From contig NZ_NSKH01000003.1 of assembly GCF_003144095.1 (NCBI RefSeq), forward strand, positions 506,086 to 570,085: 64,000 nucleotides of DNA, given 5' to 3'. Numbering within the stretch: the first letter of the stretch is position 1; every line of letters starts with the position of its first letter. A program made the translations under genes and the position numbers. The DNA comes from Streptomyces sp. ICBB 8177. GTDB lineage: Bacteria > Actinomycetota > Actinomycetes > Streptomycetales > Streptomycetaceae. Positions 2 to 56,701 of the stretch are shown piece after piece. A model generated the notes under the pieces. The model saw nothing but the letters and a program-made list of their open reading frames with translations, searched no databases and was not told the DNA's origin.

Positions 2-424
2 ACCGAGGTGCTGGGGGCGCCGGGCGGCGGACACCGGCTGGTGGTGCGCGACGTCAACTACGCCAAGCGCGACACGGTCGACGTCGACGTCGTCGTCCTG
101 GCCACCGGATTCCGCGACTTCGGCACCGGCCCCGGCGACGAGCCCTACCACCCGCTGCTGCGGGAGATCGCCCACCGGCTGCCGATGGACTCCGACGGCG
201 TCCCGGTGGTCGCCCGCGACTACTCCATCACCCTGCGGCCGCGCACCCCCGGTGCTCCCGCGCCGCGCGTCTACCTCAACGGGCTGTGCGAGGCCAGCCA
301 CGGCATGGGCGACGCGGGGGCGCTGGCCATGCTGTCGGTGCGCTCCACCGACATCGCCGGCTCGCTCGCCGAACGCGTCGGCACCGGCAGCGACGCACCC
401 CTGGTCGCCGGAGCCCTGCGATGA
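2..424 (+). CDS. Amino-acid N-hydroxylase, C-terminal part (SidA/IucD/PvdA family)
   Basis: The gene enters from the left edge; about 140 C-terminal residues are visible. They contain the family's ATGF element (residues VVVLATGF) and the C-terminal substrate-side motif HGMGDAGALAMLSVRS typical of FAD/NADPH lysine-N6 or ornithine-N5 hydroxylases. Such enzymes make the hydroxylamine of hydroxamate siderophores and also the N-hydroxylysine used for N-N bond formation. The stop overlaps the next start (ATGA at 421-424), so the genes are translationally coupled. The FAD and NADPH Rossmann motifs lie outside the window, so whether the substrate is Lys or Orn cannot be read here. Confidence 0.8.
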   Translation, partial: TEVLGAPGGGHRLVVRDVNYAKRDTVDVDVVVLATGFRDFGTGPGDEPYHPLLREIAHRLPMDSDGVPVVARDYSITLRPRTPGAPAPRVYLNGLCEASHGMGDAGALAMLSVRSTDIAGSLAERVGTGSDAPLVAGALR

Positions 425-1524
425 CGCGAGGCGCCGGGGCGGCGGTGACGCGAGCCGTCGCCTCGGCGGACGTCGCCGTCGTCGGCTGCGGCATCGCGGG
501 ACTCGCCGCGGCCGAACGGCTCTGTCGCGACGGGCTGACCGTCGTGATGGCCGACCCGGCCGGCATCGCCTCCGGCGCCACCGGTGCCTCCGGCGGGCTG
601 GTCCGCGCCCTCGACCTGTCCCGCCGGTACGGCGACCGGGCCGCCGAGAGCCTCGACGTGTACCTGCGCCGGGGCCCCCGCGGCCACTGGCCCGCGGTCC
701 GCGAGGACGGCAGCCTGACCCTCTTCGGCGCGGGCGACCTGCGCGCCGCGCACGAGGCGGCCGGGCGGCTGCGGGCGGCGGGGCACGCGGTGGAGCTGCT
801 GACGGCGGCCGACGTCGCCGCCCGCTTCCCCGCGCTCTCCCCGGCCGGCGTGCTCGGCGGCGTCCTGGAACCCCGGGCGGGCTGGCTGCCCGCCCGGGAG
901 GTCGCCGCCGCCCTGGTCCGCGACGCGGGAGGTCGCCTGCTCGTCCTCGAGGCCCGCGCGACCCGGCTGCTGACCCGCGCGGGCCGGGTCACCGGCGTCC
1001 GCACGAGCGCGGGCGACGTGACCGCCGGGGCCGTGCTGCTGGCCGCCGGGGTCGGCAGCGTGCCGCTGGCCGCCCAGGTCGGCGTCGACCTGCCGCTGTG
1101 CACGCGGTCGGTCGGCTACTGCCTCTTCGCGCCCGACGACACCGCCGCGGCCACCGGACTGCCGACCGTCGTGGACGCCACCACCGGTGCCTGGCTGCGG
1201 CGCTGGGACGACGGCGTGCTGCTCGCGGGCGTCACCTCCAAGGAGACCGACGTGCCCGCCCGCGTCACCCACCACGTCACCGACGCCGAACGGCACCGGG
1301 TCCACGACGTCGTGCGGCGGCTGTGCCCCGCGCTGGCCCGGGCCCGGTTCACCGGCGGGGTCACCGCGTACGACGCCATGTTCACCGACGGACCCGGGGC
1401 CGTCACCGCCTGGCCCGCCGCGCCGGGACTGGTCACCGCCGTCGGCTGGAACGGCGGCGGCTTCAAACTCGCCCCCGCCGTCGGCGCCGAGGCGGCCGCC
1501 CTGCTGAAGGAGGCGATGGCATGA
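421..1524 (+). CDS. FAD-dependent amine/amino-acid oxidase, DAO family
   Basis: A 367-residue protein. Its N-terminal dinucleotide-binding motif VGCGIAGLAAAERL lies at about residues 20-35, followed by the GASGGL segment common in glycine/sarcosine-oxidase-like DAO proteins. The C-terminal GWNGGGFKLAPAVG motif closes the FAD site. Family members oxidise the C-N bond of secondary or primary amines, usually producing imine and peroxide. The ATG at 421 was chosen because it overlaps the upstream stop by four bases. The gene overlaps the following one the same way (ATGA at 1521). Sitting directly behind an N-hydroxylase, it recalls hydrazinoacetate pathways in which such an oxidase cleaves a hydrazino-lysine; that role is inference. 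Confidence 0.8.
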   Translation: MTRGAGAAVTRAVASADVAVVGCGIAGLAAAERLCRDGLTVVMADPAGIASGATGASGGLVRALDLSRRYGDRAAESLDVYLRRGPRGHWPAVREDGSLTLFGAGDLRAAHEAAGRLRAAGHAVELLTAADVAARFPALSPAGVLGGVLEPRAGWLPAREVAAALVRDAGGRLLVLEARATRLLTRAGRVTGVRTSAGDVTAGAVLLAAGVGSVPLAAQVGVDLPLCTRSVGYCLFAPDDTAAATGLPTVVDATTGAWLRRWDDGVLLAGVTSKETDVPARVTHHVTDAERHRVHDVVRRLCPALARARFTGGVTAYDAMFTDGPGAVTAWPAAPGLVTAVGWNGGGFKLAPAVGAEAAALLKEAMA

Positions 1525-2945
1525 GCCCGCGCGGCACCTGGCGGCTCGGCCCCACCGACGAGATGCTGCGCGACTCCGCCCGCGCCCTGGGCTCCGCGCG
1601 TACCGTCCAACTGCTGTGGCGCTTCCCCGGACCGGTCAGCGCCGACGCGCTGGACGCCGAGTGGCGGCGGCTGGACCGCGGCCGGCTCAGCCGCCGCATC
1701 GTCCCGGCCGGCGTCCCCGGCGCCCGCGACCGCTGGGCCCCGGCGCACAACGAGGAACCCCCGCGCCACGACGACGTGCCGCTGACCGGCACCACCGTGC
1801 GCGGCTGGCTCGACGACCAGGTCCGCGCGCCGCTGCCGGTCGACTCCGGCGCGCTGTGGCGGCTGTCGGCGGCGCCCTACCGCGACGGGAGCCTGGTCTC
1901 GCTGTGCGTGCCGCACTTCCGCTGCGACGGCATGGGCCTCTTCCGCGCCCTCGCCGAACGCACCGACCCGCCCGCACCGCGCCACCGCATACCCGGGCCC
2001 CTGGCCGGGGACCTCGCGGACGCCGCCTCGGGCGTCGCCGCCGCCCTCACCCGCACCCCACCGTGGGCCGCCGCCCTGTTCACCCACCCCGAACGGCTGC
2101 GGCGGCTCGCCCGGGCGCTGCGCCCCGCGGGCCCGGCGCCCGCCGCGAGCGCGCCGCGCTACTTCTCCTGGGACGTCTTCGAGGTCGACGCCGCCGCGTG
2201 GGAGGAACGCGCCCGCGCCCACGGCGGCACCGTCAACAGCCTGTTCGTCGAGATCGCCGCCAACCTGGTGCGCGCCGCCGTCCCCCGCGACGCCGAGGCC
2301 GACGTGGCGATCGGCGTCCCCGTGGACCGCCGCACCTCACCCGGCGACGGCCGGGCCAACGCCCTCGTCGTCGTCCCCGTGGCCGTCGCGGGCGGCCCGC
2401 CCCGCCACGACGGCCTGCGTCCCACCCGCCGGGCCACCAAGGCCGCCCTCGCCGACCCGCAGCTCCAGGCCGCCACGCTCGTGCCGGAACGCCTGTGGCA
2501 CCTGCTGCCCGGCGGCCTCGCGGGTGCCCTGAAGACCCCCGGCGCCCAGCAGACGGACGCGGTCGCCTCCAACTTCGGCGCCGCCCCCGAGGCGGTGACC
2601 CTCTTCGCCGGGGCCCGCGCGGACGCCGTGGCGCTGCGCACGATGAACGTGCCCGGCGTGGTGCCCGAGCGCGCCCGGCTGCGCGCCTCGTTGTGCCTGC
2701 TGCGCACCGGCGACCGCTTCCACGTCACCGTCACCGGCATGCCCGACCACTTCGGCGACGGAGACACGCTGCATCGGCTGGCCCGCGAGGAGTTCGCCGC
2801 CTGGGACCTGCAGGCCCGCGGCTGGTGGGAACCGGCGCCGTACGACGACCGGTTGCCGCCCGTTCGCTCAACGGCGGTGCGTGGTGCGGCCGTTGGTGTC
2901 GCCCATCGCGGTGCCCGTCCTGTCACCGGAGGAAGTGAACGATGA
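1521..2945 (+). CDS. Condensation-fold acyltransferase-like protein
   Basis: A stand-alone protein of 474 residues, close to the size of one NRPS condensation or wax-ester-synthase type domain. The motif VPHFRCDGMG at about residues 130-140 matches HHxxxDG with the first His replaced and the catalytic second His and the DG kept. A TVNSLFVEIAANL helix follows around residue 235, as in condensation and WS/DGAT folds. No carrier or adenylation domain is attached. It overlaps both neighbours by four bases, so it probably acts in the same pathway, perhaps acylating the amine or hydroxylamine made upstream. The substrate is unknown. Confidence 0.6.
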   Translation: MSPRGTWRLGPTDEMLRDSARALGSARTVQLLWRFPGPVSADALDAEWRRLDRGRLSRRIVPAGVPGARDRWAPAHNEEPPRHDDVPLTGTTVRGWLDDQVRAPLPVDSGALWRLSAAPYRDGSLVSLCVPHFRCDGMGLFRALAERTDPPAPRHRIPGPLAGDLADAASGVAAALTRTPPWAAALFTHPERLRRLARALRPAGPAPAASAPRYFSWDVFEVDAAAWEERARAHGGTVNSLFVEIAANLVRAAVPRDAEADVAIGVPVDRRTSPGDGRANALVVVPVAVAGGPPRHDGLRPTRRATKAALADPQLQAATLVPERLWHLLPGGLAGALKTPGAQQTDAVASNFGAAPEAVTLFAGARADAVALRTMNVPGVVPERARLRASLCLLRTGDRFHVTVTGMPDHFGDGDTLHRLAREEFAAWDLQARGWWEPAPYDDRLPPVRSTAVRGAAVGVAHRGARPVTGGSER

Positions 2946-3814
2946 CCGCGACCCCCCGTGCGGCGGCGCTCCCCGAGCGCTGGTTCCGTACGCTCCCCGA
3001 CGCGTCCGGGCTCGAACGGTCCCGCGTGCTCGCCCGGTCCCTCATACCGCTCGCCGAACTCGACCGGCACATCGCCTTCCACGAGGACCTGCTCGGCGTG
3101 CCCGCCTCGCTGCGCATGCCCATACCGGACTTCGGCGGGCTCGAACTGGCCGCCGTGGGCGACCTGTTGCTCATCGCCAGCGAGCGTCCGTTCACCCCGG
3201 TGCAGCGGCGGACCGCGTACTCCCTCATCGTGCCGTCGCTCGCCGACGAGCTGGCGCGGCTGGAGGGTACCGGCACGACCGTCCTCGAACCGGTGGAGGA
3301 CATCCTGCCCGGCGCCCGCGCCCGGGTGCGCTACCCCGACGGCACGCTCGCCGAACTCGTCGAGCACCGCCCCCGGCCCGGCGAGACCCCGTGCCCGCCG
3401 GCCGTCCCCGAAGGCCGCGTGCCCTCCGGCGTGCGTGTGCTGGCCCGGCGAGCGGTGCCACGCGCGGGATTCACCGAAATGGTGGCGCTGTACGAGGAGT
3501 TGCTCGCGACGGCGGCCGGTCCGCGCGGTCGTGGCGCGGCAGCCGTCGGGAACGTGCTGGTGGTCGCCGACGACGCCGCTTCCCACGACGGCGGTGCGGG
3601 CGACGAGGGTGCGCGGGCGGCGTTGCTGGCGCCGGACGCGGCAGCGGCCGATGCCCTACGGCAACTCGTCGCGGTGGGTGGTTCCTTCGGGCGGAACGCG
3701 ACCCGGACGGTCACCCTCATCGGCGGGACCCCGGCGGAGGTCTGGAACGCGGACGACCTGGGCGATCCCGGCGCCGTCGCGGCCCCGGCCGGGTCGGCGC
3801 ACCGGCCGGGATGA
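2942..3814 (+). CDS. VOC (glyoxalase/dioxygenase-like) protein, two repeats
   Basis: A 290-residue protein. The first half (about residues 30-145) has the VOC arrangement: LDRHIAFHEDLLGVP early, then a beta-rich core and a PDGTLAELVEH end. The second half (about 150-285) repeats the pattern weakly, with FTEMVALYEELLAT. VOC proteins are metal-dependent isomerases, dioxygenases or resistance/binding proteins, and I cannot tell which this is. It starts at an ATGA overlap with the acyltransferase gene, making it the last gene of the coupled operon. The next gene, korA, is 69 bases further on and unrelated in function. Confidence 0.6.
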   Translation: MTATPRAAALPERWFRTLPDASGLERSRVLARSLIPLAELDRHIAFHEDLLGVPASLRMPIPDFGGLELAAVGDLLLIASERPFTPVQRRTAYSLIVPSLADELARLEGTGTTVLEPVEDILPGARARVRYPDGTLAELVEHRPRPGETPCPPAVPEGRVPSGVRVLARRAVPRAGFTEMVALYEELLATAAGPRGRGAAAVGNVLVVADDAASHDGGAGDEGARAALLAPDAAAADALRQLVAVGGSFGRNATRTVTLIGGTPAEVWNADDLGDPGAVAAPAGSAHRPG

Positions 3815-3883: not shown

Positions 3884-5782
3884 ATGAGCACGGCGACCGT
3901 CCGGCGGTTGGATCGGGTGATCATCCGGTTCGCTGGTGATTCCGGTGATGGGATGCAGCTGACGGGTGACCGGTTCACTTCGGAGACGGCGTCGTTCGGT
4001 AACGACCTGTCGACGCTGCCGAACTTTCCGGCGGAGATCCGGGCTCCGGCGGGTACGTTGCCGGGTGTCTCGTCGTTCCAGTTGCATTTCGCCGATCATG
4101 ACATTCTCACGCCGGGTGATGCGCCGGATGTGCTGGTGGCGATGAACCCGGCGGCGTTGAAGGCGAACATCGGTGATCTGCCGGCGGGTGCGCAGGTCAT
4201 CGTCAACACCGATGAGTTCACCCGGCGGGCGTTGCAGAAGGTCGGCTACGCGGCGGATCCGTTGCAGGACGGGTCGCTGGAGGCGTTCCGGGTGCATCCG
4301 GTGCCGTTGACGACGTTGACGGTCGAGGCGCTGTCCGGCTATGACCTGTCGCGGAAGGAGGCCGAGCGGAGCAAGAACATGTTCGCGTTGGGCCTGCTGT
4401 CGTGGATGTACCACCGCCCGACCGCGTCGACGGAAGGTTTCCTGCGGGCGAAGTTCGCGAAGAAGCCCGCGATCGCGGAGGCGAACATCACCGCGTATCG
4501 GGCGGGGTGGAATTTCGGGGAGACCACGGAGGAGTTCGCCACCGTCTATGAGGTGGCCCCGGCGTCGAAGGCGTTCAGCCCGGGCACCTACCGCAACATC
4601 TCCGGGAACCTGGCGCTGGCCTATGGTCTGATCGCGGCCGGCCGGCAGGCGGACCTGCCGCTGTTTTTGGGTTCGTATCCGATCACTCCGGCCTCCGACA
4701 TCCTGCACGAGTTGTCGCGGCACAAGAACTTCGGGGTGCGCACCTTCCAGGCGGAGGACGAGATCGCCGGGATCGGTGCCGCTTTGGGTGCGGCCTTCGG
4801 CGGCTCGCTGGCGGTGACGACGACGTCGGGGCCGGGGGTGGCGTTGAAGTCGGAGACGATCGGGCTGGCGGTCTCGCTGGAGTTGCCGCTGCTGATCGTC
4901 GACATCCAGCGCGGTGGGCCGTCCACCGGCCTGCCCACCAAGACCGAGCAGGCTGATCTGCTGCAGGCGATGTACGGGCGCAACGGTGAGGCGCCGGTGC
5001 CGATCGTGGCACCGGCGACGCCGGGGGACTGTTTCACCGCCGCCCTGGAAGCCGCCCGCATCGCCTTGACCTACCGCACCCCGGTCTTCCTGCTCTCCGA
5101 CGGGTATCTGGCCAACGGCTCCGAACCGTGGCGGGTCCCGCAGCTCGATGAACTGCCGGATCTGCGGGTGCGGTTCGCGACCACGCCGAATCATGACGGG
5201 GAGTTTTGGCCGTATCTGCGGGACCCGGTCACGCTGGCGCGGCCGTGGGCGGTGCCGGGCACGCCGGGTCTTGAGCACCGGATCGGGGGCATCGAGAAAC
5301 AGGACGGCAGCGGGAACATCTCCTACGACCCGGCCAACCACGACCTGATGGTCCGCACCCGCCAGGCCAAAATCGACGGCATCACCGTCGAGGACATCGA
5401 AGTCGACGACCCCGACGGGGACGCGACCACGTTGGTCATCGGCTGGGGCTCCACCTACGGCCCCATCACCGCCGCGGTGCGGCGGGTACGGCGCGCGGGC
5501 GGGAAGGTCGCGCAGGCGCATCTGCGGCACATCAACCCCTTCCCCGCCAACCTCGGCCAGGTCCTGAAGGCCTACGAGAAGGTGATCGTGCCGGAGATGA
5601 ACCTCGGCCAGCTCGCCACCCTGCTACGCGCCAGATACCTGGTCGACGCCCACTCCCACACCCAGGTGACCGGCCTGCCCTTCAAAGCCGAACAACTGGC
5701 CACCGCCATCACCCACACCATCAACCAGCAGCAGTTGCATGCCAGCGGCAACGGGCACGAGGGGGACAGCGCGCATGTCTGA
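3884..5782 (+). CDS. korA: 2-oxoacid:ferredoxin oxidoreductase, fused gamma/alpha subunit
   Basis: A 632-residue protein in which the gamma domain (residues 1-200, starting VIIRFAGDSGDGMQL) is fused to the alpha pyrimidine-binding domain (about 240-620, with GSYPITPASDIL and TTSGPG). This is the usual actinobacterial form of 2-oxoglutarate:ferredoxin oxidoreductase. With KorB it decarboxylates a 2-oxoacid, probably 2-oxoglutarate, to the acyl-CoA and passes electrons to ferredoxin. It overlaps korB by eight bases. The first 1.2 kb uses many T-ending codons (GGT, GAT, TTG), unlike the C-ending codons of the second half and of its neighbours. Confidence 0.92.
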   Translation: MSTATVRRLDRVIIRFAGDSGDGMQLTGDRFTSETASFGNDLSTLPNFPAEIRAPAGTLPGVSSFQLHFADHDILTPGDAPDVLVAMNPAALKANIGDLPAGAQVIVNTDEFTRRALQKVGYAADPLQDGSLEAFRVHPVPLTTLTVEALSGYDLSRKEAERSKNMFALGLLSWMYHRPTASTEGFLRAKFAKKPAIAEANITAYRAGWNFGETTEEFATVYEVAPASKAFSPGTYRNISGNLALAYGLIAAGRQADLPLFLGSYPITPASDILHELSRHKNFGVRTFQAEDEIAGIGAALGAAFGGSLAVTTTSGPGVALKSETIGLAVSLELPLLIVDIQRGGPSTGLPTKTEQADLLQAMYGRNGEAPVPIVAPATPGDCFTAALEAARIALTYRTPVFLLSDGYLANGSEPWRVPQLDELPDLRVRFATTPNHDGEFWPYLRDPVTLARPWAVPGTPGLEHRIGGIEKQDGSGNISYDPANHDLMVRTRQAKIDGITVEDIEVDDPDGDATTLVIGWGSTYGPITAAVRRVRRAGGKVAQAHLRHINPFPANLGQVLKAYEKVIVPEMNLGQLATLLRARYLVDAHSHTQVTGLPFKAEQLATAITHTINQQQLHASGNGHEGDSAHV

Positions 5783-6923
5783 GGCACCCGTCATCGACCA
5801 CCAGCCCACCAACAGCACCGCCCCCGCCACCGCGGCCACCGCGGCCACCGCGGCCACCGCGGCCACCGCGGGCGGCCTGCCGGCGTTGTCGCTGGTGCCG
5901 AAGGCCGACGCACAGCAGTCCGCCCGCGACTTCAAGTCCGACCAGGAAGTGCGCTGGTGCCCCGGCTGCGGCGACTACGCCATCCTCGCCGCCGTCCAGG
6001 GCTTCCTGCCCGAACTCGGCCTGGCCCGCGAGAACATCGTGTTCATCTCCGGCATCGGCTGCTCCTCCCGCTTCCCCTACTACATGAACACCTACGGGAT
6101 GCACTCCATCCACGGCCGCGCCCCCGCCATCGCCACCGGACTTGCCACCACCCGCCCCGACCTGTCCGTCTGGGTCGTCACCGGCGACGGCGACGCCCTG
6201 TCCATCGGCGGCAACCACCTCATCCACGCCCTGCGCCGCAACGTCAACCTCAAAATCCTGCTGTTCAACAACCGCATCTACGGCCTCACCAAAGGCCAGT
6301 ACTCCCCCACCTCGGAAACCGGCAAGATCACCAAATCCACGCCGATGGGATCCCTCGACGCCCCGTTCAACCCCCTCTCCCTCGCCCTCGGAGCGGAAGC
6401 GGGGTTCGTCGCCCGCACCATCGACTCCGACCGCAAACACCTCACCACCGTCCTGCGCGCCGCAGCCGCCCACCCCGGCACCGCACTCGTGGAGATCTAC
6501 CAGAACTGCAACATCTTCAACGACGGCGCCTTCGACGCCCTCAAAGACAACACCACCGCGCAAGAAGCCCTCATCCGCCTCGAACACGGCCAGCCCATCC
6601 GCTTCGGCACCAACGGCGACAAGGGCGTCATCCGCGACCCCCACAGCGGAGAACTGACCATCACCGACGTCACCGACGCCAACGCCCACCAGATCCTGGT
6701 GCACGACGCCCACGCCACCTCACCCACCACCGCCTTCGCCCTCACCCGCCTCGCCGACCCCACCACCCTCCACCACACCCCCATCGGCATCCTCCGCGAC
6801 ACCACCCGCACCGTCTACGACACCGCCATGACCCACCAACTCGACACCGCCGTCGAACAACACGGCAAGGGCGACCTGAGCGCGCTGCTGGCGGGCAAGG
6901 ACACCTGGACGGTCGTCGGCTGA
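5775..6923 (+). CDS. korB: 2-oxoacid:ferredoxin oxidoreductase beta subunit
   Basis: A 382-residue thiamine-diphosphate subunit. It shows the WCPGCGDYAIL motif, whose cysteines help bind the 4Fe-4S cluster, the GIGCSSRFPYY segment, and the TPP/magnesium motif GDGDALSIGGNH. The ATG at 5775 follows a purine-rich stretch inside the end of korA; an earlier in-frame start at 5739 has no better site. The first 50 residues are an Ala/Thr-rich extension partly encoded by five 9-base repeats, and the conserved domain begins only at about residue 45. Together with KorA it forms the oxidative-decarboxylation enzyme that supplies reduced ferredoxin. Confidence 0.92.
   Translation: MSEAPVIDHQPTNSTAPATAATAATAATAATAGGLPALSLVPKADAQQSARDFKSDQEVRWCPGCGDYAILAAVQGFLPELGLARENIVFISGIGCSSRFPYYMNTYGMHSIHGRAPAIATGLATTRPDLSVWVVTGDGDALSIGGNHLIHALRRNVNLKILLFNNRIYGLTKGQYSPTSETGKITKSTPMGSLDAPFNPLSLALGAEAGFVARTIDSDRKHLTTVLRAAAAHPGTALVEIYQNCNIFNDGAFDALKDNTTAQEALIRLEHGQPIRFGTNGDKGVIRDPHSGELTITDVTDANAHQILVHDAHATSPTTAFALTRLADPTTLHHTPIGILRDTTRTVYDTAMTHQLDTAVEQHGKGDLSALLAGKDTWTVVG
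5826..5870 (+). repeat. Five tandem 9-bp repeats inside korB
   Basis: The unit gccaccgcg occurs five times without change. It encodes an Ala-Thr-Ala repeat in the non-conserved N-terminus of KorB. Being a multiple of three, copy-number change would lengthen or shorten the tail without breaking the frame. Confidence 0.9.
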
Positions 6924-52004: not shown

Positions 52005-52300
52005 ACCGGCTTACCTTTCGAGCACGCCTCAGGGCCGACCCCCGTGGCTCCCTGGTACAACGGTCGTTCAGCTTACGGGGGGAGACGCGGCCGTCGCATC
52101 CCCCGTTCCCGCAAGTGGGAGGCGGGGCGCGAGGTTTCACCGCGTTCCGCGCCGCCTTCACCGTTCCCACACCTGGCCCGGCACCCGGCGCCTGGGAGGC
52201 CGTCGCGGGCCTGAGGCATCATGGTGGCCGTCCGACGAGAACCACCCCGCGACGGCGAAGGCCGGGCGCGGGCCATGATCCAACGCCCGGGGGGACGGCC

Positions 52301-55300
52301 GTGGAACTCCAGCTCAGCGTCATCGACCCGGTCCGGGACGGCCGCGCCGACGTGCTGGTCGACGCGGACCCGGCGGCACCGGTCGGCGCGCTCGCCGTCG
52401 AGATCGCCCGGCAGCTCGGCAGGCCCGACGACGGCCAGGGCCCGCCCGGGCTGCACGTGGGCGGCTTCCGCCTCGACCCCGAAGTGAGCCTGGACGCCTC
52501 CCCGCTGCGCGACGGCGCCCTGGTCTCGCTGGCCGCGCCGGTCGCCTGCCCGACGCCCGACGCGCAGGGCACCGTCGAGGTGCGCGTCGTGGGCGGCCCC
52601 GACGCGGGCGGCGTGCACCGGCTGGGACCCGGGGTGGCCGTGGTGGGCAGCGGCGCCGACGCCTGGATACGGCTGGCCGACCCCACGCTGCCGCACGCCG
52701 CCGTCGAGGTGGACGTCGCCATCGACGGCACCGTGACCGTCCACCCCTCCTACGGCGCCACCGCCACGCTGGACGGCGAGGCGCTGACCGGGCCGATGCC
52801 GTGGCGCAGGCGCAGCGTGGTGGCCGTCGGCCAGAGCCTGCTGGAGCTCCAGCACCCCACGTTCCCCGACGCCGCGCTCAAGCCCTCCGAGGACGGCACC
52901 GGCCTGGACTACAACCGGCCGCCGCGCATCACCCCGCCGCCGCGCCCCACCAAGTTCAACCTGCCCTCGCGGCCCAAGCAGAGCGAGGCGCGGCCGCTGC
53001 CGTGGGTGATGGCGGGCATCCCGCTGGTCGGCTCGGTCGCCATGGCGACGATGATGCACCAGCCCTCGTACCTGTTCATGGCGGTGCTCAGCCCGCTGAC
53101 GATGGTCGGCAACTACGTCAACGACCGCAAGCAGGGCAAGAAGTCGTTCCGCCAGACGCTGGCGGACTACGAGAAGCAGAAGGACTCCATCGAGCGGCAG
53201 GCCCGCAAGGCCGCCGCAGCCGAGACCGGCGCCCGCCGCGACGGCGCGCCCGACCCGGCCGAGGTGCTGGTCACCGCGACCGGCCCGGGTCAGCGGCTGT
53301 GGGAGCGGCGCCGAGCCGACTTCGACTACGGCCAACTGCGCGTCGGCACCGGCACGTTGCCCTCCGAGGTCGAGGTCTCCGACCCGATGCAGGAGGAGCA
53401 CAAGCGCACCGCGCCGCGCAAGCTGCTGGACGTGCCCGTGACCGTGCCGCTCCAGGAGCACGGGGTGCTGGGCATCGCCGGGCGCGGGGAGATGCCGCGC
53501 GCCATCGGCCGCTGGCTGGTCGCGCAGGCCGCCGTGCTGCACTCCCCCGCCGACCTCCAGGTCTGCGTGCTGACCGACCCCAGCGGCCGGGAGAGCTGGG
53601 AGTGGGTGCGCTGGCTGCCGCACGCCCGCGCCCGCGACGGGCAGTCGGCGATCTCGCTGATCGGCACCGACTCCGACTCGGTCGCCCGGCGCATCTCCGA
53701 ACTGCTGGCCCAGGTCACCGCCCGCCAGGAGGCGGCACGTGACGCGGGTCTGGCCGCCAACCAGATGTGGAGCGGGCCGACCACCCTGGTCGTCCTCGAC
53801 GGCTCGCGGCGGCTGCGCGCCCTGCCGGGCCTCACCCAGATCCTGCGCGACGGCCCGAAGGTCGGCATCCACCTGGTCTGCCTCGACGCCGACCGGCGGC
53901 TGCTGCCGGAGGAGTGCCGGGCGCTGGTCGAGGAGGACTACTACGGCATGCTCCAGGTCTCGATGGCCGGCCAGGAGCCGGTCACCGGGGTCCGCCCGGA
54001 CTGCGTGAGCCCGCAGTGGTGCGAGCAGACCGCCCGCGCGCTCGCCCCGATCCGCGACATCAGCGGCGACGACGGCGCTGCGCTGCCGGACGCCTGCCGC
54101 CTGCTGGACGTCATCGACCTGGAACCGCCCACCGCGCAGGGCATCGTGGGGCGCTGGGCGGCCGGCGGCCGGTCCACCAGCGCGGTGGTCGGCGCGTCCT
54201 TCGACGGCGCGTTCGCCATCGACCTGGTGCGCGACGGGCCGCACGGCCTGGTCGCGGGCACCACCGGTTCCGGCAAGTCGGAACTGCTGCAGACCATCGT
54301 CGCCTCGCTCGCGGTGGCCAACCGGCCGGACGCCATGACGTTCGTGCTGGTCGACTACAAGGGCGGCTCGGCGTTCAAGGACTGCGTGAAGCTGCCGCAC
54401 ACCGTGGGCATGGTCACCGACCTCGACACCCACCTGGTGGAACGCGCCCTGGAGTCGCTCGGCGCCGAACTGCGGCGCCGCGAGCACATCCTGGCCGCCG
54501 CGGGCACCAAGGACCTGGAGGACTACATCATCGCGATGCGGTCCAACCCGTCGCTCGCGCCGATGCCCCGGCTGCTGATCGTCATCGACGAGTTCGCCTC
54601 GATGGCCCGCGAACTGCCGGACTTCGTCACCGGCCTGGTCAACGTGGCGCAGCGCGGCCGCTCCCTCGGCATCCACCTGATCCTGGCCACCCAGCGCCCG
54701 TCCGGCGTGGTCTCGCCGGAGATCCGCGCCAACACCAACCTGCGCATCGCGCTGCGCGTCACCGACGCCGCCGAGTCCTCCGACGTCATCGACGCCCCCG
54801 ACGCCGGGCACATCGCCAAGTCCACGCCGGGCCGCGCGTACGTACGGCTGGGCGCCTCGTCGCTCCTGCCGTTCCAGTCCGGCCGGGTGGGCGGACGCCG
54901 TCCGGGGCAGGTCGCCACGAAGGCGCCGGCGCCGTTCACCGCGGCCGTCGGCTGGGAGGCGCTGGGGCGGCCCGCGCCGGAGCGGCCCGCGGGCGCGAAG
55001 TCCGGCGACGACGACCTGCTGACCGACCTCGCCGTGCTGGTCGACGCGATCATCGAGGCCAACGGGCAGCTGGGCATCCCCGCGCAGCACAGCCCGTGGC
55101 TGCCCGCGCTGCCTGAGGCGATGACGCTGGACGACCTGGAGCCGCCGCGCCGGCTGTCGCGCGACGGACTGCTGCCCGCGCCGTACGCCATCGACGACCT
55201 GCCGGGCCAGCAGGCCCGCCGCACCTGCGTCATCGACCTGCCGAGCTTCGGCCACCTGATGATCGCGGGCGCGCCGCGCACCGGACGCTCGCAGGCGCTG

Positions 55301-56701
55301 CGCACCATCGCCGGCTCGCTGGCCCGCGCCAACTCCCCGGCGGACGTGCACCTTTACGCGCTGGACTGCGGCAACGGCTCGCTGCTCGCACTCAACTCGC
55401 TGCCGCACTGCGGCGCGGTGGTGCGCGCCAACGAGGCGGACCGCGCGGTGCGGCTGATCGGCAACCTCTCCGCCGAGGTGCAGCGGCGCATGGCGCTGCT
55501 GGGCGAGCGCGGCTTCACCGACATCAACGAGCAGCGGCTCGGCGTCCCCGAGCAGGACCGGCTGCCGCACATCGTGCTGTTCCTGGACCGCTGGGAGGGC
55601 TTCACGCCCTCGCTGGGCGAGCTGAACGCGGGCGAACTGACCGACGCGGTCCACCAGTTGATGCGTGAGGGTGCCTCCGTCGGCGTCCACGTGGTGATCT
55701 CCGGCGACCGCACGCTGCTGCTGGGCCGGATCTCGACGCTGACCGAGAACAAGATGGCGTTCCAGCTCAGCGACCCCTCCGACCTGACCCTGATCGGTCT
55801 CAACCCGCGCAAGGTGCCGCAGTCCATGCCGCCGGGCCGGGGCTTCCGCCAGCAGGGCGCGGTCGAGACGCACGTGGCGATGCTGACCCAGGACCCCTCG
55901 GGCCAGGCGCAGGCCGCAGCCCTCGTCACCATCGGGCAGTGGGCCAGGGGCCGTTGGGCCGGCGTGCCGCGCTCCCGCATGCCGTTCCGGGTGGACGTGC
56001 TGCCGAACCGGATCTCCTTCGAGGAGGCGTGGGAGCTGCGCGAGCCGGGCGACCGTTCCGTGGCGAGCCCGATGTGGGCGCTCACCGCGGTCGGCGGCGA
56101 CCAGCTGCTGGCGCTCGGGCCCGACCTGGCCACCGGCAGCCCGGCGTTCGTCGTCGCGGGGCCGCCGCGCTCCGGCCGCAGCACCGTGCTGCTGACGATG
56201 ACGCGCTCGCTGCTGTCGGTCGGCACCCAGGTCATCCTGGCCGCCCCGCGCCGCCAGTCACCGCTGCGTCGGCTGAAGAACGCGCCGGGCGTCGTCGGCT
56301 ACTTCGCCGGGGAGGACATCTCGCCCGACGAGCTGCGCGAGGCGCTGGAGCGGGTGCACGGGCCGGCCGTGCTGCTGGTGGACGACGCGGAGCTGCTGCG
56401 CAACTGCGAGGCCAACGATGTGCTGACCTCGCTGGTGCGGCGGTCGGCCGGCAAGGACGTCGGCGTGGTCATCGCGGGCGACGCGGACGACGTGTGCGGC
56501 GGCTTCTCCGGCTGGCAGGTGGAGATGAAGAAGGCCCGGCGCGGTCTGCTGCTCTCCCCGCAGAACCTCTCCGACGCCGACCTGGTCGGGGTGCGGCTGC
56601 AACGCGGCTCGGTCGGGCAGCCGGTGGTCCCGGGCCGCGGGCTGCTCCACCTCGGCGACGGCGAGGTGCGCACCGTCCAGGTCCCGCTGACGGCGCTGTA
56701 G
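52301..56701 (+). CDS. EssC/EccC-like type VII secretion ATPase with N-terminal FHA-type domains
   Basis: A 1466-residue protein. Residues 1-85 form a ubiquitin-like or FHA-like domain, 90-190 a second FHA-like domain, and two membrane helices lie at about 230-270 (GIPLVGSVAMATMM, LFMAVLSPLTMVGN). Three FtsK-type ATPase modules follow: D1 with a complete Walker A GTTGSGKS (Lys659) and Walker B LLIVIDEFAS, D2 GAPRTGRS (Arg996 in place of Lys), and D3 GPPRSGRS (Arg1293). Active D1 with altered D2/D3 is typical of secretion ATPases. The GTG at 52301, preceded by a G-rich site, starts the conserved sequence. The two FHA domains resemble the Firmicute EssC layout rather than mycobacterial EccC. 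Confidence 0.88.
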   Translation: MELQLSVIDPVRDGRADVLVDADPAAPVGALAVEIARQLGRPDDGQGPPGLHVGGFRLDPEVSLDASPLRDGALVSLAAPVACPTPDAQGTVEVRVVGGPDAGGVHRLGPGVAVVGSGADAWIRLADPTLPHAAVEVDVAIDGTVTVHPSYGATATLDGEALTGPMPWRRRSVVAVGQSLLELQHPTFPDAALKPSEDGTGLDYNRPPRITPPPRPTKFNLPSRPKQSEARPLPWVMAGIPLVGSVAMATMMHQPSYLFMAVLSPLTMVGNYVNDRKQGKKSFRQTLADYEKQKDSIERQARKAAAAETGARRDGAPDPAEVLVTATGPGQRLWERRRADFDYGQLRVGTGTLPSEVEVSDPMQEEHKRTAPRKLLDVPVTVPLQEHGVLGIAGRGEMPRAIGRWLVAQAAVLHSPADLQVCVLTDPSGRESWEWVRWLPHARARDGQSAISLIGTDSDSVARRISELLAQVTARQEAARDAGLAANQMWSGPTTLVVLDGSRRLRALPGLTQILRDGPKVGIHLVCLDADRRLLPEECRALVEEDYYGMLQVSMAGQEPVTGVRPDCVSPQWCEQTARALAPIRDISGDDGAALPDACRLLDVIDLEPPTAQGIVGRWAAGGRSTSAVVGASFDGAFAIDLVRDGPHGLVAGTTGSGKSELLQTIVASLAVANRPDAMTFVLVDYKGGSAFKDCVKLPHTVGMVTDLDTHLVERALESLGAELRRREHILAAAGTKDLEDYIIAMRSNPSLAPMPRLLIVIDEFASMARELPDFVTGLVNVAQRGRSLGIHLILATQRPSGVVSPEIRANTNLRIALRVTDAAESSDVIDAPDAGHIAKSTPGRAYVRLGASSLLPFQSGRVGGRRPGQVATKAPAPFTAAVGWEALGRPAPERPAGAKSGDDDLLTDLAVLVDAIIEANGQLGIPAQHSPWLPALPEAMTLDDLEPPRRLSRDGLLPAPYAIDDLPGQQARRTCVIDLPSFGHLMIAGAPRTGRSQALRTIAGSLARANSPADVHLYALDCGNGSLLALNSLPHCGAVVRANEADRAVRLIGNLSAEVQRRMALLGERGFTDINEQRLGVPEQDRLPHIVLFLDRWEGFTPSLGELNAGELTDAVHQLMREGASVGVHVVISGDRTLLLGRISTLTENKMAFQLSDPSDLTLIGLNPRKVPQSMPPGRGFRQQGAVETHVAMLTQDPSGQAQAAALVTIGQWARGRWAGVPRSRMPFRVDVLPNRISFEEAWELREPGDRSVASPMWALTAVGGDQLLALGPDLATGSPAFVVAGPPRSGRSTVLLTMTRSLLSVGTQVILAAPRRQSPLRRLKNAPGVVGYFAGEDISPDELREALERVHGPAVLLVDDAELLRNCEANDVLTSLVRRSAGKDVGVVIAGDADDVCGGFSGWQVEMKKARRGLLLSPQNLSDADLVGVRLQRGSVGQPVVPGRGLLHLGDGEVRTVQVPLTAL

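Follow-up and report, generated by a model that had tools for sequence, protein, structure and literature searches.

The biosynthesis of hydrazines by the hydrazine synthetase family involves adenylation, formation of an ester on an N-hydroxy group and a rearrangement carried out by a zinc cupin (PMC8664883; PMC11705231). For s56-p1 (Spb38-Spb39-Spb40) and triacsin (Tri26-Tri27-Tri28) a lysine N6-hydroxylase, a synthetase made of cupin and methionyl-tRNA synthetase (MetRS) parts and a DAO-family oxidase are encoded together. An operon which likewise encodes these functions was identified at the left edge of a 64,000-nucleotide stretch of Streptomyces sp. ICBB 8177 (contig NZ_NSKH01000003.1), referred to here as the window (G000:C22:506086-570085, + strand; a window position is the C22 position minus 506085). 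Based on its gene content this is very probably a complete and compact natural-product operon for hydrazine formation. The operon also contains a gene for PanD, aspartate 1-decarboxylase. We propose that beta-alanine is the amino acid coupled and that 3-hydrazinopropionate is formed as an intermediate, a reading to which we assign a probability of roughly 55%.

In a preliminary description, based on the letters of the window, four genes coupled by ATGA overlaps were noted at its edge, among them an N-hydroxylase gene next to that for a DAO-family oxidase; an operon cut by the window edge and a hydrazine pathway were suggested, with leftward extension of the contig set beforehand as the test. 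The overlaps were confirmed at positions 421 (hydroxylase and oxidase genes), 1521 and 2942, and both enzyme assignments were upheld by Pfam matches. The extension revealed the start of the hydroxylase gene and four further genes, including those for a cupin and a MetRS-like protein directly upstream, as expected for a hydrazine pathway. The window edge thus cuts an eight-gene operon (C22:501329-509899), of which the four genes in the window are the last half. The genes, all on the + strand, are given below in their order.

C22:501329-502579, + strand, flavin monooxygenase (FAD_binding_3, PF01494, E 9.6e-31); outside the window
C22:502640-502981, + strand, cupin of 113 aa (Cupin_2, PF07883, E 2.5e-15); outside the window
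C22:502978-504591, + strand, MetRS-like protein (PF09334, E 4e-44); outside the window
C22:504726-505094, + strand, PanD aspartate 1-decarboxylase (Asp_decarbox, PF02261, E 6.5e-47); outside the window
C22:505166-506509, + strand, L-lysine N6-hydroxylase of 447 aa, whole gene (PF13434, E 2.5e-79; best PDB match L-lysine 6-monooxygenase 5cqf, E 1.5e-66)
window 2..424, + strand, C-terminal 140 aa of the hydroxylase, the start lying upstream of the window
window 421..1524, + strand, DAO-family flavin oxidase of 367 aa (PF01266, E 5.9e-42), expected to cleave the conjugate
window 1521..2945, + strand, WS/DGAT-like acyltransferase of the condensation-type superfamily, 474 aa (HxxxDG at 132-137, SNFG at 350-353; ten orthologues; mycobacterial relatives)
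window 2942..3814, + strand, tandem VOC protein (glyoxalase/bleomycin-resistance fold), 290 aa (model with a predicted local distance difference test score, pLDDT, of 65; best Foldseek match PA4183, 8aid, E 1.0e-11)

The four frames in the window are real genes, and their third-position G+C bias is strong (0.94, 0.95, 0.93 and 0.89). Adenylation domains, carrier domains and polyketide synthases are absent from the operon.

The distribution of the MetRS-like hydrazine synthetase was investigated in 395 Streptomycetaceae genomes, 51 of which gave a match at the threshold of E 1e-60 or better. Nine of the 51, among them the window genome, form a clade with at least 74% identity in the MetRS-like protein, the next best match being at 45%. 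Together with Streptomyces sp. CB02923 (L012) they make up the set of ten genomes compared here; the locus of Streptantibioticus parmotrematis goes by two handles, L011 and L080. The genes for cupin, MetRS-like protein, PanD, hydroxylase, DAO-family oxidase and acyltransferase occur in identical order in all ten genomes, which belong to at least three genera. The VOC gene is next in each case, by a direct tblastn match in nine loci and as an orthologue at 15157-15978 in L077. The flavin monooxygenase gene stands first in the operon of most members. The flanking genes mostly differ between the lineages while the gene order is constant, and the operon is therefore considered to be a unit of its own. 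No further synthetase was found at E 1e-50 or better in a phylum-wide sample of 396 genomes, so that the comparison of loci with and without PanD given below is one within the Streptomycetaceae.

The cupin motif H-x-H-x3-E ... H was found in all ten clade cupins. The zinc of RHS1 is bound by Asp63, His65, Glu69 and His103, of which the Glu is required for N-N bond formation (PMC8664883). The clade cupins, as well as most of the other cupins sampled, have His at the place of Asp63 as first ligand. The MetRS-like gene overlaps the cupin gene by four bases, and the lysine N-hydroxylase is encoded two genes downstream of the synthetase in all ten loci. Aligned to E. coli MetG, the MetRS-like protein keeps HLGH and KFSTS, motifs of the HIGH and KMSKS types, and it is 26% identical to the second MetRS encoded in the window genome. 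The positions examined are those which we take to line the methionine pocket, D66 presumably corresponding to the MetRS residue by which the amino group is bound. D66 is kept, and together with S25, I272, Y273, H276 and N306 it is invariant in the clade. S25, Y273, H276 and N306 were observed in none of 32 other synthetases and I272 in one; the position of N306 is occupied by F or W in all 32. By this comparison the pocket of the clade synthetases is distinct from all others sampled.

PanD is present in all ten loci (77-98% identity), always between the MetRS-like protein and the hydroxylase, and was found at none of 32 other hydrazine-synthetase loci of Streptomycetaceae, in which up to ~9 kb on each side was searched. 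The ten loci are related, and this contrast of ten against zero counts one clade and not ten independent events. The cluster PanD passes the strict NCBIfam model TIGR00223 with 141.3 bits (cut-off 106). In a phylogenetic tree the cluster PanDs form a single clade (support 1.0), which is separated by a long branch. They retain YVGS with Gly24-Ser25, presumably the processing site, and K9, Y22, R54, T57, Y58 and N72, which we take to be involved in substrate binding or catalysis. Judged by these comparisons, PanD is dedicated to the operon. Two additional panD copies are present in the window genome (G000:C24:351187 and C24:392794), and a separate copy was found in all other searched clade genomes but one. 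The cluster PanD is the sole PanD of G177 (single contig, 100% complete), which fits genuine beta-alanine synthesis by this enzyme without proving it, since other routes to beta-alanine exist. The two C24 copies lie ~42 kb apart, and one of them departs clearly from the form usual in actinobacteria.

The proposed pathway would begin with decarboxylation of L-aspartate to beta-alanine by PanD and formation of N6-hydroxylysine by the hydroxylase. The MetRS-like protein would activate beta-alanine with ATP and esterify it onto N6-hydroxylysine, and the zinc cupin would convert this ester by rearrangement into the N-N-bonded N6-(2-carboxyethylamino)-lysine. The DAO-family oxidase, whose gene occurs in all ten loci, would then cleave a C-N bond of this conjugate; the simplest outcome would be 3-hydrazinopropionate and 2-aminoadipate 6-semialdehyde, comparable to the release of hydrazinoacetate by Spb39. 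The order and products of the last stage are guesses: the acyltransferase might use an acyl-CoA to acylate the hydrazine, the flavin monooxygenase, where present, might oxidise it, and the VOC protein might shield the producer or assist a late step. For the route as a whole, in which a beta-amino acid is taken through a six-membered rearrangement, cleavage yields 3-hydrazinopropionate and a family of acylated hydrazines is entered without a carrier protein, we consider the chances to be even.

The 474-residue protein was described earlier as having a condensation fold with HxxxDG partly kept. The motif, which is that of the WS/DGAT and condensation superfamily, is in fact complete (P131-H-F-R-C-D-G-M-G). 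H132, D136, G137 and G139 are invariant in the ten orthologues, and H132, D136 and G137 also among 16 aligned relatives. The closest named relative is S. parmotrematis (L011), with 91% identity in this protein. No Pfam model, PF03007 included, matched the protein at E values up to 10, and nothing was found in a PDB sequence-profile search. A profile search revealed mycobacterial relatives of similar length and 24-29% identity, which have HxxxDG and mostly S-N-x-G. The protein is, on this evidence, WS/DGAT-like rather than a WS/DGAT member. Because one of the mycobacterial relatives passes PF03007 (WS_DGAT_cat; 32.9 bits, cut-off 23.6), it is likely to be an acyl-CoA-dependent acyltransferase, and acyl-CoA dependence fits the lack of adenylation and carrier domains in the operon. 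A nonribosomal peptide synthetase condensation domain (PF00668) found no support: in hhalign comparisons with two condensation-type domains from L057, one of which was confirmed as PF00668, the probability did not exceed ~1%. The family is large and mostly unannotated in mycobacteria (L015, L099 and others); L099 has at least three of its genes in tandem.

A further supposed condensation domain in the window (54737-56116, - strand) was discarded from the comparison, since this frame runs antisense to an ATPase gene of type VII secretion. The large gene concerned (window 52115-56701), with FHA-like and FtsK-type ATPase sequence, reads like one for an EccC protein and is unrelated to the operon.

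Assignment of the last gene product to the VOC proteins agreed with its model, for which Foldseek also returned two-module VOC enzymes. The match to PA4183 is at 34% identity over one module. The role of this protein may be catalytic or protective.

Several points weigh against beta-alanine as the partner and against parts of the pathway as drawn. The hydrazine-synthetase partners listed in PMC11705231 are all alpha-amino acids (Gly, Ala, Ser, Glu and Tyr), and beta-alanine would require a six-membered instead of a five-membered rearrangement. The distinct pocket does not by itself point to beta-alanine, a fit which we infer, and PanD could serve another purpose. The side on which the DAO-family oxidase cleaves cannot be read from the sequence, as Spb39 cleaves its conjugate to hydrazinoacetate and Apy10 cuts on the opposite side (PMC11705231). 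The AlphaFold model of the acyltransferase, for which three sequences were usable, has a pLDDT of 39, and its assignment runs through a chain of homologues. The flavin monooxygenase was not found anywhere in the genomes of the close relatives L076 and L079. The uniform list of alpha-amino acids speaks for a synthetase which uses glycine or another alpha-amino acid. The beta-alanine from PanD would then be a building block in its own right, such as the acyl acceptor or part of the acyl donor; a free-standing acyltransferase needs both an acceptor and a donor, neither of which is provided by another gene of the operon. This is possible but rather doubtful, given that PanD lies between the MetRS-like protein and the hydroxylase in every member and that the clade pocket is unlike those of all other synthetases sampled. 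Of the preliminary description, in which the pairing was compared with hydrazinoacetate formation from glycine, the hydrazine pathway and an acylated hydrazine are retained, while glycine and hydrazinoacetate became less likely because a panD gene was found in the operon.

Hydrazines attack pyruvoyl groups. PanD might on these grounds be a self-resistance or replacement copy, diverged so as to stay active while the pyruvoyl carbonyl of the housekeeping enzyme is trapped. Such a function would suit the strong divergence of the cluster PanD outside its active site, the complete G177 genome with this copy only, and the housekeeping-type genes (korAB, ferredoxin, serA) which adjoin some copies of the operon. 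We consider it improbable: no PanD occurs near the other sampled hydrazine-synthetase loci, although their hydrazines should be equally reactive, and we cannot point to a residue change by which hydrazine attack would be prevented. It is less probable still that aspartate is the amino acid coupled to N6-hydroxylysine by the synthetase and that PanD now decarboxylates the conjugate or some other derivative. The long cluster-PanD branch would fit an altered substrate, and the end product could be identical, but the presumed substrate-binding and catalytic residues are unchanged and the strict PanD model is passed. The simpler alternative raised at the outset, a hydroxamate siderophore operon with N-hydroxylation followed by acylation, was rejected. 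An N-hydroxylase and an acyltransferase are indeed encoded in the operon, and IucA/IucC genes occur elsewhere in the genome; those genes, however, are at C22:57659 (~440 kb away) and on contig C11, and the cupin/MetRS pair, the DAO-family oxidase and PanD all belong to the operon. No siderophore synthetase, either of the IucA/IucC type or a siderophore nonribosomal peptide synthetase, was found in the operon or in the 35 kb read upstream, nor was a siderophore receptor or synthetase seen in the flanks read, and we regard this reading as very improbable.

Genes for a 2-oxoacid:ferredoxin oxidoreductase follow the operon in the window.

window 3884..6923, + strand, korA-korB, 2-oxoacid:ferredoxin oxidoreductase (PF01855, PF01558, PF02775); membership of the operon uncertain

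They start 70 bp after the operon, and this korA is the only full copy found in the window genome; KorA residues 5-38 are also encoded at G000:C10:19667-19768 (94% identity), apparently as a fragment. A korA gene lies directly downstream of the operon in L080, L074 and L078 as well, one of these three having korB, ferredoxin and serA genes in addition, and a decayed remnant was found in L077. Ferredoxin, korAB, P450, an acyl-CoA-thioesterase-type gene and gamma-butyrolactone-type regulators were observed near the operon in several members, none of them universally. In L074, L075 and L078, genes that resemble those for an AfsA-type butyrolactone synthase, two TetR regulators and a short-chain dehydrogenase are located ~4-5 kb upstream of the operon, which suggests that some members control the operon through a gamma-butyrolactone. 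A LysR-type helix-turn-helix domain is encoded ~0.4 kb upstream of the operon in L009 (L009:9369-9833), with no effector-binding domain attached. This stretch is also kept in S. parmotrematis and is possibly a truncated regulator.

Neither a hydrazine synthetase using beta-alanine nor hydrazinopropionic acid from any organism was found in the open-licence literature searched, which covers few subscription journals. If beta-alanine is the partner, the operon would open a biological way to 3-hydrazinopropionate, on whose carbon-nitrogen skeleton the drug meldonium is built. It would also indicate that Streptomyces relatives make small acylated hydrazine metabolites of an undescribed class. The use of these synthetases in making hydrazines is limited by a short list of alpha-amino-acid partners (PMC11705231), and the scope of the reaction would be broadened by a natural enzyme that takes beta-alanine. 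As the operon is conserved, short and easily moved to a laboratory host, the idea is directly testable.

The operon shares features with several known systems. For the systems in PMC2922099 three components are predicted to be universal, and all three are also found here: a MetRS paralogue, a lysine N6-monooxygenase and a cupin, which is either fused or encoded by the gene next to it on the 5' side. Aspartate decarboxylase and alanine were not found in the text of PMC2922099. The mycobacterial WS/DGAT-like acyltransferases are encoded outside hydrazine operons, one of them (in L015) beside an MmpL-like gene. In the actinopyridazinone system (Apy9-Apy10-Apy11) a hydroxylase, a hydrazine synthetase and a DAO-family oxidase occur as in the window operon. 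N4-hydroxy-diaminobutyrate and alanine are used there, and PanD is not mentioned in the available part of PMC11705231. The albofungin afn cluster resembles the window operon in having split genes for a MetRS-like protein (Afn8) and a cupin (Afn9) together with a lysine N6-hydroxylase (Afn18). These lie within a large cluster for a type II polyketide, which also encodes a hydrazine transferase resembling asparagine synthase (PMC11705231), whereas the window operon has no polyketide synthase and its acyltransferase is WS/DGAT-like. The Spb and Tri synthetases are single two-domain proteins which use glycine (PMC11705231). Compared with them, the window operon encodes the cupin and the MetRS-like protein by separate genes, adds PanD, the acyltransferase and the VOC protein, and has the distinct pocket residues of its clade.
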